A program made the position numbers and the translations under genes. Below the pieces are notes generated by a model. The model did not search any database. It worked only from the letters and a program-made list of their open reading frames with translations, and had not been told where the DNA came from. From Clostridia bacterium (GTDB taxonomy: Bacteria > Bacillota > Clostridia > UMGS1883): a stretch of 45,469 nt of DNA. Shown piece after piece: positions 41,298 through 45,469 of the stretch. Location: the NCBI GenBank assembly GCA_017411435.1, contig JAFQQD010000058.1:1-45469 (forward strand). Reading direction: 5' to 3'. The stretch's first letter is position 1; every line of letters starts with the position of its first letter.

Positions 41298-42725
41298 TCA
41301 CTTTCCGATGCAAAAATTAGCAAAGATATTCCCCAGCACCTCATCGGTTGAAATCTCTCCTACAATTGAGCCGATGTGGTAGATCGCTTCGCGGATGTCC
41401 TGGGCGGCGAGGTCGGTGGGGAGGCCGGCGGCGAGGCCTTCGCGGACACGGAGGAGGGAAGTGCGCGCGTCGTTGAGAGCCTGGACATGACGCTGGTTTG
41501 TGACGAGGGTGGTGTCGCTGTCACCGAGAAGATTGCGCTGTGTGGAGGCGAGATGAGCCCTGAGCTCTGAAATTCCGGCTCCTGTTCTGGCTGAAATCGG
41601 GATTATCGGTATCTTGCCTGCAACTCCTTTATTTTCAAGCTCTGAAACTATAAAGTTTGATGTGGTAACATTATTGTTAACCTCTGAAATATCGGTTTTG
41701 TTGAGCAGAATTACTAAATTCTGAATTGAGAAATCCACTTTGCCGATGATCTCCCTTACTGTCTCGCAAGTGCTTTCGAAGTCACGGGTCAGGTCTACCA
41801 TTCCGAGCACTATCGACGCCTCGGAGATCTTCTTGAATGTCCTCTCGATTCCGATTTTTTCGACAGTTTCTGTCGTTTCGCGAAGTCCGGCTGTGTCGAT
41901 GAAGCGGAAGAGTATTCCGTCTATGTTCAGGGTCTCTTCAATGGTGTCGCGGGTGGTGCCGTGGATGTCGGAAACGATGGCGCGGTCTTCGCCGAGGAGG
42001 GCGTTGAGCAGGGTGCTCTTTCCGGTGTTGGTCGCTCCGGCGATCGCAACCGGCACTCCGTTCTTAATGGCATTGCCGAGGCGGAATGAATCGATCAGAC
42101 GGCTGACGTGCGAGATGATTTCTGCAAGCAGGCTGTCGAGTCTCGCCCTGTCGGCGAACTCCACTTCCTCTTCGCTGAAGTCAAGTTCGAGTTCCATGAG
42201 TGAAACGAGCTCCAGAAGTTCTGATCTCATTGAACGCAGTTCAGATGAAAAGCCTCCTTTCATCTGCTTGAAGGCAATCCTGTGCGCTGTTACATTCTGA
42301 CTTGAAATGACGTCTGCAACCGCCTCAGCCTGAGCAAGGTCCATCTTGCCGTTCAGGAACGCCCTTTGTGTGAATTCACCGGGTTCTGCAGCTCGTGCGC
42401 CGGCTTCGTACAGCAGGTCCATAAGGGTTGATGCTATATACGATGAAGCATGGCACGAAATCTCTGCCGAGTTTTCTCCTGTGTATGAATGAGGCGCCCG
42501 GAACACGCTGACAAGGACTTCATCCAGGATTTCTCCGGATGATGTATGGACTGTACCGAACTTTATGGTATATCCGTCGGCGTCAGCTATGTTGCCGCGA
42601 CGGCAGGTGACAACCTTGTCGACAATGGTCAAAGCGTCAGAGCCGCTGACTCTTATCACGGAAACAGCACCTGTTCCAGGTACCGTTGCCGGGGCGCATA
42701 TCGTATCTTCGTTGTGTATATACAT
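41298..42725 (-). CDS. mnmE: tRNA modification GTPase MnmE
   Basis: 475 residues, complete. MnmE with MnmG modifies U34 of tRNAs reading codons ending in A/G. N-terminal tetrahydrofolate-binding domain (about 1-120), helical domain, and G domain with GATNTGKST, DTAGLRET and NKTD. The C-terminal FCIGK supplies the conserved cysteine. The prophage recombined in the last codons without changing the protein: the stop codon overlaps the att core. Confidence 0.97.
   Translation of the reverse strand: MYIHNEDTICAPATVPGTGAVSVIRVSGSDALTIVDKVVTCRRGNIADADGYTIKFGTVHTSSGEILDEVLVSVFRAPHSYTGENSAEISCHASSYIASTLMDLLYEAGARAAEPGEFTQRAFLNGKMDLAQAEAVADVISSQNVTAHRIAFKQMKGGFSSELRSMRSELLELVSLMELELDFSEEEVEFADRARLDSLLAEIISHVSRLIDSFRLGNAIKNGVPVAIAGATNTGKSTLLNALLGEDRAIVSDIHGTTRDTIEETLNIDGILFRFIDTAGLRETTETVEKIGIERTFKKISEASIVLGMVDLTRDFESTCETVREIIGKVDFSIQNLVILLNKTDISEVNNNVTTSNFIVSELENKGVAGKIPIIPISARTGAGISELRAHLASTQRNLLGDSDTTLVTNQRHVQALNDARTSLLRVREGLAAGLPTDLAAQDIREAIYHIGSIVGEISTDEVLGNIFANFCIGK
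41300..41312. other. attR core in the last codons of mnmE
   Basis: ACTTTCCGATGCA covers the codons for C-I-G-K and the first base of the stop codon of mnmE. Identical to attL at 6-18. Confidence 0.88.
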
Positions 42726-42750: not shown

Positions 42751-42781
42751 TTGCAAAATTACCACAAAATGCCTATCTTCG
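42751..42781 (+). promoter_or_regulatory. carAB operon promoter
   Basis: TTG (42751-42753), a 20-base spacer and TATCTTCG (42774-42781), one base off the TAnnTTTG consensus. It overlaps almost completely with the opposing mnmE promoter. Confidence 0.65.
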
Positions 42782-42784: not shown

Positions 42785-42805
42785 GAATTTAAAAGGGAAG
42801 TGACT

Positions 42806-42916
42806 ATGTGTAAACGTACAGACATCTGTACATATCTGAGTGTGAACGCATTACAAGCTGATGCACAGTCCGATGTTTTCCCTTTTTCAATCGTTTTCGA
42901 CCATTTTCTCTATTGA
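42806..42916 (+). CDS. Leader peptide of the carAB operon
   Basis: 36 residues (MCKRTDICTYLSVNAL... VFPFSIVFDHFLY), ending with TGA inside the loop of the downstream terminator. The later codons are U-rich. Translation of such a leader up to a terminator is how pyrBI attenuation couples ribosome position to UTP level in enterobacteria. The peptide itself is probably not functional. Confidence 0.6.
   Translation: MCKRTDICTYLSVNALQADAQSDVFPFSIVFDHFLY
42816..42831 (+). promoter_or_regulatory. Early hairpin in the carAB leader, possible pause site
   Basis: GTACAG (42816-42821) and CTGTAC (42826-42831) with a four-base loop, near the beginning of the leader ORF. A pause hairpin is a normal part of attenuation systems. 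Confidence 0.45.
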
Positions 42917-42934
42917 GGACTGGTCGTTTTTTTT
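42898..42934 (+). terminator. Intrinsic terminator (attenuator) before carA
   Basis: CGACCA (42898-42903) and TGGTCG (42921-42926), with an inner CTC/GAG pairing, are followed directly by eight T residues (42927-42934). It lies between the leader ORF and carA and so must be read through for carA expression. Confidence 0.8.
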
Positions 42935-42982: not shown

Positions 42983-44092
42983 ATGAAACTTAAAGCAACA
43001 CTTCGTCTGGAAAACGGCATGGAATTCCATGGGTATTCGTTCGGCAGCGTAAAATCTGTCGGTGGTGAAGTCGTTTTCAACACATCGATGGTGGGTTACC
43101 CTGAGCAGCTTACTGATCCGACCTACAACGGTCAGATCCTTTGTCTGACCTATCCGCTGATCGGAAATTATGGCGTTCCTTCTGAGGAGCTGATGGCGGA
43201 AGGCCTTTCTTTGAATTATGAGTCTGAGAGGATTCAGCCGCAGGGTCTCGTTATTTTTGATTATTGTGAAGACTACAGCAACTGGGAGGCAGTAAAAGGC
43301 CTCGAGCAGTGGATGAAAGAGCAGGACCTTCCGGGTATATGCGGCATCGATACAAGGGAACTTACAAAGATATTGAGGGACAAGGGATCGATGAAGGGAT
43401 ATATTGTTCCTGAAGGTACGACTGTTCCTGAAAACCTGCCTGTCCCTACGCCTGAAGCTGTTTCATGCAAGGAAGTGATGGTATACAAGGCTCAGCCAGC
43501 GAAGGAAGTGGAGAATGTCAATGGCAGCAAGGCAGCGGTGACCGACGGAAAGAAGGTCGTTGTTGTCGACTGCGGTGCAAAGCACAGCATCATCAGAGGC
43601 CTTGTCGCTCGTGGTGCTGAGGTGATAAGGGTCCCATATGACTATGACTACACTGAGATGGACTACGACGGTGTATATGTTTCCAACGGTCCGGGATGTA
43701 CCTGCAACTACGGCAAGACCGTCGAGGTTCTCCAGAAAGTGCTTGCCGGATCAAAGCCAGTCTTCGGCCTCGGCCTTGGTTACCACCTGATCGCCAAGGC
43801 GGCAGGATGCGAACTTGTAAGGCTCCAGCATCCTCACAGAAGTTCAAACCAGCCTGTAAGAAAGGAAGGCAGCAACCGTACGTACATTACTTCGCAGAAT
43901 GTTTACCGCGCAGTAAAGGCTGCTTCCGTCCCTTCTGACTGGGAAGTCTTCTTCACAAACCTCAATGATGGGGCAGCCGATGGAATCCGCCATAAGACAA
44001 GGCCTTTCATCGGACTGAACTTCGTTCCGGAGGTATGCGTCGGACTTACCGAGAATGCTACACCGCTTGATGAATTTATCTCGAAATTGTAG
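42983..44092 (+). CDS. carA: Carbamoyl-phosphate synthase small subunit, glutaminase site lost
   Basis: 369 residues from ATG 42983. The N-terminal carA domain (GYSFGS, FNTSMVGYPEQLTDPTY) and C-terminal class I glutamine amidotransferase fold are both present. In the amidotransferase the nucleophile elbow FG-I-C-LG is FGLGLG (Gly264 for Cys), and the catalytic HPE is VPE (Val348 for His). The subunit should not hydrolyse glutamine; it may still support the large subunit, with free ammonia as nitrogen source, as in vertebrate CPS1. Confidence 0.9.
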   Translation: MKLKATLRLENGMEFHGYSFGSVKSVGGEVVFNTSMVGYPEQLTDPTYNGQILCLTYPLIGNYGVPSEELMAEGLSLNYESERIQPQGLVIFDYCEDYSNWEAVKGLEQWMKEQDLPGICGIDTRELTKILRDKGSMKGYIVPEGTTVPENLPVPTPEAVSCKEVMVYKAQPAKEVENVNGSKAAVTDGKKVVVVDCGAKHSIIRGLVARGAEVIRVPYDYDYTEMDYDGVYVSNGPGCTCNYGKTVEVLQKVLAGSKPVFGLGLGYHLIAKAAGCELVRLQHPHRSSNQPVRKEGSNRTYITSQNVYRAVKAASVPSDWEVFFTNLNDGAADGIRHKTRPFIGLNFVPEVCVGLTENATPLDEFISKL

Positions 44093-44098
44093 TTTACA

Positions 44099-44203
44099 TG
44101 TCATGTCGAGCGTAGCCGAGACATCTTTTATTATAGATTTCTCCACTCGCTTCACTCGCTTGATAATCGACGAAGTCGCTGAAGCGAATGCGTAAGAATG
44201 ACA
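44099..44203. repeat. Palindromic interspersed repeat between carA and carB
   Basis: About 105 bp starting TGTCAT and ending ATGACA, with internal partial inverted repeats such as TCGAGCGTAGCCGAGA and CTCGCTTCACTCGCTT. This is the style of small interspersed palindromes of Bacteroidota genomes. No coding potential. Copy number elsewhere cannot be seen in this window. Confidence 0.5.
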
Positions 44204-44220
44204 GTGAAATAGGTAAGATT

Positions 44221-45469
44221 ATGATAGACAACAGCATAAAGAAAGTCATCGTGCTCGGTTCGGGAGCACTCAAGATCGGTCAGGCCGGAGAGTTTGACTA
44301 TTCTGGATCACAGGCCCTCAAGGCTCTCAAGGAGGAAGGTATCGAGACCATCCTCATCAACCCGAACATTGCAACTGTGCAGACTTCAGAACAGGTTGCC
44401 GACAAGGTATACTTCCTCCCTGTGACAGCATACTTTGTAGAGAAGGTCATCCAGAAGGAGGCTCCTCAGGGAATCCTCCTCGCATTCGGTGGCCAGACAG
44501 CCCTGAACTGCGGTGTAGAACTCTATGAGGCTGGTATCCTCGAGAAATATAATGTAAAGGTGCTCGGTACTCCTGTCCAGGCCATCATGGATACCGAGGA
44601 CCGTGAGTTCTTCAACGCAAAGCTCGCTGAGATCAACGTTAAGACCATCAAGTCGCACGCGGTTGAGACAGTGGAGGCTGCCAAGGAGGCTGCCGAGGAA
44701 CTTGGATATCCAGTCATCGTCAGGGCTGCATATGCGCTCGGAGGACTTGGCTCCGGTTTCTGTAACAATGAGGAGGAGCTCGTTACACTTTGCGAGAGCT
44801 CGTTCTCATTCTCTCCTCAGGTGCTCGTGGAGAAGTCTCTCAAGGGTTGGAAGGAGATCGAGTATGAGGTGATGCGCGACCGCTATGACAACTGCATAGC
44901 TATCTGTAACATGGAGAACTTCGACCCGCTTGGAATCCACACAGGTGAGTCTATCGTGGTCGCTCCTACACAGACTCTCAGCGCCAAGGAGTGCCAGTTC
45001 CTCCATGACCTCGCAATCAAGATGGTACGCCACATCGGAATCGTGGGTGAATGTAACGTACAGTATGCCTATGACACCGATTCAATGGAATATTACGTCA
45101 TCGAGATGAACGCCCGTCTGAGCCGCTCTTCGGCTCTTGCATCCAAGGCTACCGGATTCCCGATCGCCTTTGTTGCAGCCAAGATAGGCCTCGGTTACGG
45201 TCTCTTCGACATCAAGAATTCAGTGACCAAGCAGACACCTGCGTTCTTCGAGCCAGCACTCGACTATGTTGTCGCTAAGATCCCTCGTTGGGACCTCTCC
45301 AAGTTCACAGGCGTATCACGCAAGATCGGATCAAGCATGAAGTCTGTCGGTGAGGTAATGTCTCTCGGACGTAACTTCGAGGAGATCATCCAGAAGGGAC
45401 TCCGTATGATAGGACAGGGTGCGAACGGTTTCGTCGGCAACAAGGAAATCAAGGTCGACGATATCGACA
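44221..45469 (+). CDS. carB: Carbamoyl-phosphate synthase large subunit, partial (3' end outside window)
   Basis: First 416 residues. Motifs of the first ATP-grasp half are intact: [58 protein letters not shown] and [17 protein letters not shown]. The Gly-rich signature is of the eukaryotic CAD/CPS1-like and Bacteroidota type rather than the E. coli type. It forms carbamoyl phosphate from bicarbonate, ATP and ammonia for pyrimidine and arginine synthesis. The second half is beyond 45469. Confidence 0.95.

Follow-up and report, generated by a model that had tools for sequence, protein, structure and literature searches.

The closest described counterpart of the leader examined here is that of Escherichia coli pyrBI, in which a promoter is followed by a short open reading frame (ORF), pyrL, that overlaps an intrinsic terminator, with a hairpin and then a U-rich stretch just 5' of it. 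Pausing in pyrL was found in one study to be independent of both the hairpin and NusA in vitro (PMC9291695), and a ribosome positioned at a stop codon in E. coli keeps a terminator repressed up to a separation of ~27 nt, full termination requiring more than 27 nt (PMC4824070). For carAB itself, pyrimidine control has been reported in Pseudomonas aeruginosa, where attenuation is a possible mode and the promoter region of carA holds a leader peptide (PMC4997734). The same source refers to a genome-wide survey predicting attenuation of carA in P. syringae; the main text of the P. syringae survey (PMC2965389) mentions carA once and Bacteroidetes not at all. Pyrimidine attenuation with a carA leader peptide is already proposed for Pseudomonas. 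The carA motif RNA of beta-proteobacteria is described as an extended imperfect hairpin 5' of carA, with a promoter before the motif, and as a riboswitch candidate (PMC8632094). Within Bacteroidota, leader-peptide attenuation has been reported as likely before amino-acid operons of Flavobacterium psychrophilum (PMC9723704), and unvalidated leader sORFs have been reported in Bacteroides thetaiotaomicron (PMC7366714). The open-access literature, as weak evidence, yielded no description of UTP-type attenuation of carAB in Bacteroidota.

Here we describe a leader upstream of carAB in a contig of 45,469 nucleotides, the whole of which is referred to below as the window. As in pyrBI, an ORF overlaps or abuts a terminator before a pyrimidine gene and a U-rich stretch lies just 5' of that terminator; the leader differs from pyrBI in preceding carAB, in placing its stop codon within the terminator or shortly 5' of it (the pyrL stop lies beyond the terminator, 43 nt from the stem start), and in showing no visible sequence similarity to pyrL. 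At the level of description, P. aeruginosa carAB shares the leader peptide and the possible pyrimidine attenuation in a different phylum, and the carA motif RNA shares the hairpin and the upstream promoter but has no leader ORF in the description available. The F. psychrophilum attenuators share the short ORF, the attenuation and the phylum; unlike them, the window leader has no regulatory codon run, and has a U-rich stretch instead. On balance, we consider it fairly probable that carAB is controlled in cis by ribosome-dependent, UTP-responsive transcription attenuation of the pyrBI type.

Layout of the carAB leader

The features of the locus, all on the forward (+) strand of the window, are as follows, with the kind of evidence in brackets where it applies.

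42751-42781, +: Bacteroidota-type promoter, TTGC, 19-nt spacer and TATCTTCG (sequence)
42791-42800, +: 5' arm of the lock helix, AAAAGGGAAG, adjoining the leader AUG on its 5' side (fold, consensus fold, permutation p 1.5e-4)
42806-42916, +: leader ORF of 36 codons, ATG at 42806 and TGA at 42914-42916, MCKRTDICTYLSVNALQADAQSDVFPFSIVFDHFLY (ORF, kept in relatives)
42848-42864, +: conserved hairpin GCATTA-CAAGC-TGATGC, candidate pause hairpin ~11 nt 5' of the first T-run
42875-42897, +: U-rich stretch directly 5' of the terminator (U enrichment, helix)
42877-42886, +: 3' arm of the lock helix, within the U-rich stretch
42898-42934, +: intrinsic terminator, stem 42898-42903/42921-42926, inner stem 42906-42910/42915-42919, eight T at 42927-42934
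42983-44092, +: carA, carbamoyl-phosphate synthase small subunit (ORF; leader-bearing relatives 64-83% identical)
44188-45469, +: carB, large subunit, extending beyond the window end (ORF; identity from translation)

The transcript 5' end would be expected at ~42787-42790, judging from the promoter, which a generic sigma-70 scan of the window did not report. The terminator (42898-42926 plus the eight T) has a predicted energy of -13.2 kcal/mol and a z of -4.2, equalled by none of the shuffles, and its loop contains the leader stop codon TGA; the fold of the full leader has a z of -3.5. An ATG near 44223 is the likelier start of carB. No Rfam family matched the window leader at the gathering threshold, and the sole match at a relaxed threshold was a chance-level miRNA on the opposite strand.

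Two observations concern the surroundings. The gene mnmE (window 41298-42725) is divergent to carA and, by eye, is so too in several relatives with different leader types, which suggests an old gene pair. REP-like repeats (GTCATGTCGAGCGTAGCCGAGACATCT..., CCCGATCAGGTCGGGAATGACG...) lie in the carA-carB gap (window 44093-44222) and, in L010 and L087-L089, in the gap between attenuator and carA.

Origin of the contig and sampling of relatives

Genus mates of the assembly carry a carA only ~40% identical to that of the window, and carA upstream regions in the family of that genus have TATAAT-like boxes. Sequences of carA 64-83% identical to the window's and preceded by the same leader were found in Bacteroidales genomes, most of them of ruminant-gut origin. 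On another contig of the assembly (G000:C15; the window is G000:C51) lies a second MnmE gene, genus-like and 42% identical. Because of these identities and the second MnmE, the window contig is probably Bacteroidales DNA binned with an unrelated genome; the attribution to a Bacteroidota genome in the earlier note is right for the contig, which is grouped with a genome whose relatives carry carA and MnmE only ~40% identical to those of the window.

Conservation was therefore tested in the Bacteroidales family reached via locus L012 (genome G026), with a sample of 105 carA upstream regions from that family and its neighbours. In about half of them (54/105, 50 distinct) a promoter -7 box, TANNTTYG, lies 72-160 nt 5' of an intrinsic terminator. 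These leaders sort into 12 sequence types. Type A comprises 14 sequences including the window, with peptides that mostly start MCKR; types B, C, D, F, H and K encode other peptides.

Leader ORF and stop placement

The earlier note had read from the window alone a 36-codon ORF with its stop codon in the loop of a terminator, and had called for an alignment of relatives. Both features are borne out, as close relatives share the ORF and terminator and the alignment shows a frame reaching the terminator more often than chance would give. An ATG-started ORF of at least 22 codons extending to the terminator is present in 22/25 representatives versus 9.1 expected from dinucleotide shuffles (nominal p 2e-8, the sequences being related), in 9/12 types versus 3.9 expected (p 0.002), and in 7/7 long-leader types versus 2.3 expected (p 3e-4). 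Types C and H are hit by the covariance model of type A as well, and this partial homology among leader types makes even the type-level p-values optimistic.

In the long-leader types, the stop codon falls between 14 nt 5' of the stem and 21 nt inside it; the ORF continues past the terminator stem in L026, L028 and L142 and ends before it in L010 and L013. By analogy with E. coli, the stop positions of the main types would lie within the distance at which a stop-bound ribosome suppresses a terminator.

Over the leader up to the terminator loop, the 14 type A sequences align without gaps. Variation at the three codon positions is 0.175, 0.196 and 0.186; because these vary equally, selection on the peptide sequence is not visible. 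Candidate peptide motifs (Y..VNAL.DNA in type A, P.GA in type B) were rejected, being explained by RNA hairpins with no third-position excess. What is conserved is the open frame and the place of its end, which fits a leader read for timing, not for its product. Types E, G, I and J have short leaders or no U-rich stretch despite a terminator, and other relatives have no leader. Type E (L097, L107, L116, L120, L133 and L138) consists of short leaders of carA whose terminator is similar; they lack a U-rich stretch as well as a window-like ORF reaching the terminator, and may represent different or decayed control.

The U-rich stretch

Base composition was compared between the 25 nt ending 3 nt 5' of the terminator stem and the remaining leader. 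In line with the U-rich stretch of the window (42875-42897), mean U content is 0.47 versus 0.24, and it is higher before the stem in 7/7 long-leader types (t-test p 6e-4, Wilcoxon p 0.016). Over the same 25 nt, C is unchanged (-0.01), and A and G are lower. The stretch is absent from the short-leader types E, G, I and J, which may be decayed or operate in another way. Some of the U-richness could be a by-product of pairing with the A-rich 5' arm described below.

The ORF and stop placement would suit any signal that alters leader translation, so that the leader might sense something other than UTP, whether a charged tRNA such as that for arginine, a small molecule that targets the nascent peptide, or how fast translation proceeds overall. 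Arginine is one candidate, since carAB also supplies arginine synthesis, and carA in some relatives apparently follows an argH-like gene (by eye). However, no leader type has the regulatory codon run of a his- or trp-type attenuator, and the consensus fold shows no conserved competing antiterminator pairing. Arginine attenuation was rejected for lack of conserved Arg codons, which differ between leader types, and stalling at the early Arg codon would have the wrong sign for such control, since the terminator would stay unblocked. An arrest peptide is likewise at odds with a peptide that, by the codon-position values above, is unconserved beyond its RNA. Sensing of a non-UTP signal also leaves the U-specific enrichment unexplained, and we regard it as unlikely.

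RNA structure of the leader

The early hairpin that the earlier note placed at 42816-42831 is perfect in the window alone, with relatives keeping 1-5 of its 6 pairs, and is absent from the consensus fold. The pyrBI-like arrangement that the note proposed loses that element and otherwise survives the comparison: the ORF, its stop placement, a stretch rich in U (not C) and the terminator are retained across divergent leaders, and before carA only. A different hairpin, at 42848-42864 (GCATTA-N5-TAATGC), has its six pairs intact in 14/14 type A sequences, with U-G replacing U-A in three, and recurs in the divergent type C; in type B, a different hairpin, GYRCC-tetraloop-GGYGC, lies nearby (by eye). 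Its role as a pause hairpin stays a candidate one, because pyrL pausing is hairpin-independent in vitro (PMC9291695).

A second structure, missed by the earlier note, is a long-range helix in which the bases just 5' of the leader AUG (42791-42800) pair with the U-rich stretch (42877-42886). This lock helix is recovered independently by RNAalifold, and two of its pairs show compensatory changes; the pair immediately flanking the GGG/CCC core, inspected by eye, is A-U in the window and L090, U-A in L010 and L088, and C-G in L089 and L011. In a test that pooled types A, B and C and exchanged arms between relatives (20,000 derangements), native arms paired better than swapped ones (p 1.5e-4); the type-mean z was -1.06 (p 0.003), and a control region gave +0.39. 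In most cases the 5' arm extends up to the AUG, and the 3' arm is mostly found 10-35 nt 5' of the terminator. Another candidate pairing, of the AUG region with ACAUAU (A1 columns 19-24 with 43-48), was rejected, being broken by codon-2 changes.

A comparable fold is predicted for E. coli pyrBI, where CGGGAGGA, which holds the pyrL ribosome site, would pair with UCUUCCCG of the U-rich stretch around the hairpin GCGUCUGAAAAAAGACGC. For this one sequence, the leader fold has a z of -2.2 and the duplex alone a z of about 0, and the E. coli helix is a prediction only, because the duplex is no better than shuffles. A helix between AUG and U-rich tract was not found in the portions of the pyrBI literature consulted.

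A conserved long-range helix enclosing inner hairpins and conserved core nucleotides could also be read as a riboswitch aptamer for a compound of the pyrimidine pathway, with the ORF incidental, and the carA motif, an extended imperfect hairpin preceding beta-proteobacterial carA, is itself a riboswitch candidate (PMC8632094). Yet no pairing competing with the terminator arms is conserved in the consensus fold, the core sequences of types A and B differ, the leader lacks an Rfam match at the gathering threshold, and the ORF and its stop placement are conserved beyond chance. We judge a riboswitch to be improbable, slightly more so than the sensing of a non-UTP signal through the leader peptide.

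Distribution of the element

The type A covariance model found matches in 12/398 family genomes, every one just 5' of carA, and no leader or terminator of the carA kind was seen at pyrB and pyrE of the same genomes. Because it is absent from these genes, the element is not a general pyrimidine regulon. An order-wide search found the leader to be rare outside the family, with a few promoter-terminator arrangements of other kinds, and in other relatives carA apparently follows argH- or pyrG-like genes and has no leader (by eye).

Some of the remaining upstream regions have features of their own. L015/L093 and L019 carry a strong terminator-like hairpin (TCTGGTGGGGTG..CATCCCATCAGA-T5-6) directly 3' of the carA promoter; no leader ORF is evident there, and the hairpin may be a further carA attenuator. 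In the order-level relatives L213, L229 and L237, the carA promoter is followed by a terminator of the GCRTTT...AAAYGCA type, unlike that of the window, which may mark an attenuator type of its own. In L244-L258, the interval from the pyrE promoter to the start codon contains a recurrent stretch like GCAAATATAGGCAGAAGAACTGAAAAACAATCAAAA.

PyrR regulates pyrimidine operons by attenuation in many Gram-positive bacteria, and a protein such as PyrR bound to the leader RNA might in principle control the terminator here. This is very improbable, given that no leader contains a PyrR loop with at least 10/12 consensus bases and that the element is absent at pyrB and pyrE of the same genomes. An unregulated, constitutive terminator or processing hairpin with a chance ORF, to which types E and I, for example, might point in retaining the terminator without ORF or U-rich stretch, is just as hard to credit, since ORF, helix and U-rich stretch are co-kept beyond chance.

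Proposed mechanism

Under the UTP-responsive attenuation favoured here, polymerase would start near 42787-42790 and transcribe the leader, and a closely following ribosome would reach a stop codon located in the terminator stem or no more than 14 nt from it. Bound there, it would cover the 5' arm of the stem, and transcription would enter carAB; with no ribosome near, the terminator would form and transcription would end. That leader translation would prevent termination is well supported. We infer UTP to be the signal: at low UTP, polymerase would move slowly through the U-rich stretch, with the hairpin at 42848-42864 perhaps setting a pause, allowing the ribosome to catch up, so that carAB expression would presumably rise as UTP falls. 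The product of the regulated genes is carbamoyl phosphate, the first step of pyrimidine synthesis.

Once made, the U-rich stretch would pair just 5' of the AUG and close the leader start, leaving late ribosomes unable to rescue the transcript. The stretch may thereby have a dual role, slowing polymerase at low UTP and, after its synthesis, shutting the landing site of the leader ribosome; we put this forward tentatively, as a possibility that is rather less than even. If the dual role is true, UTP would set a time window for ribosome loading, a kinetic gate and not a chase alone.

Implications

If the dual role holds and the same helix forms in E. coli pyrBI, where it could be tested with one compensatory mutant pair, it would represent an unrecognised general design of UTP attenuators. 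Translation initiation in Bacteroidota rarely uses Shine-Dalgarno pairing. If UTP-responsive attenuation of carAB is confirmed, Bacteroidota would couple polymerase to a trailing ribosome at the first step of pyrimidine synthesis, and the leader would provide a natural test of transcription-translation coupling in this phylum.
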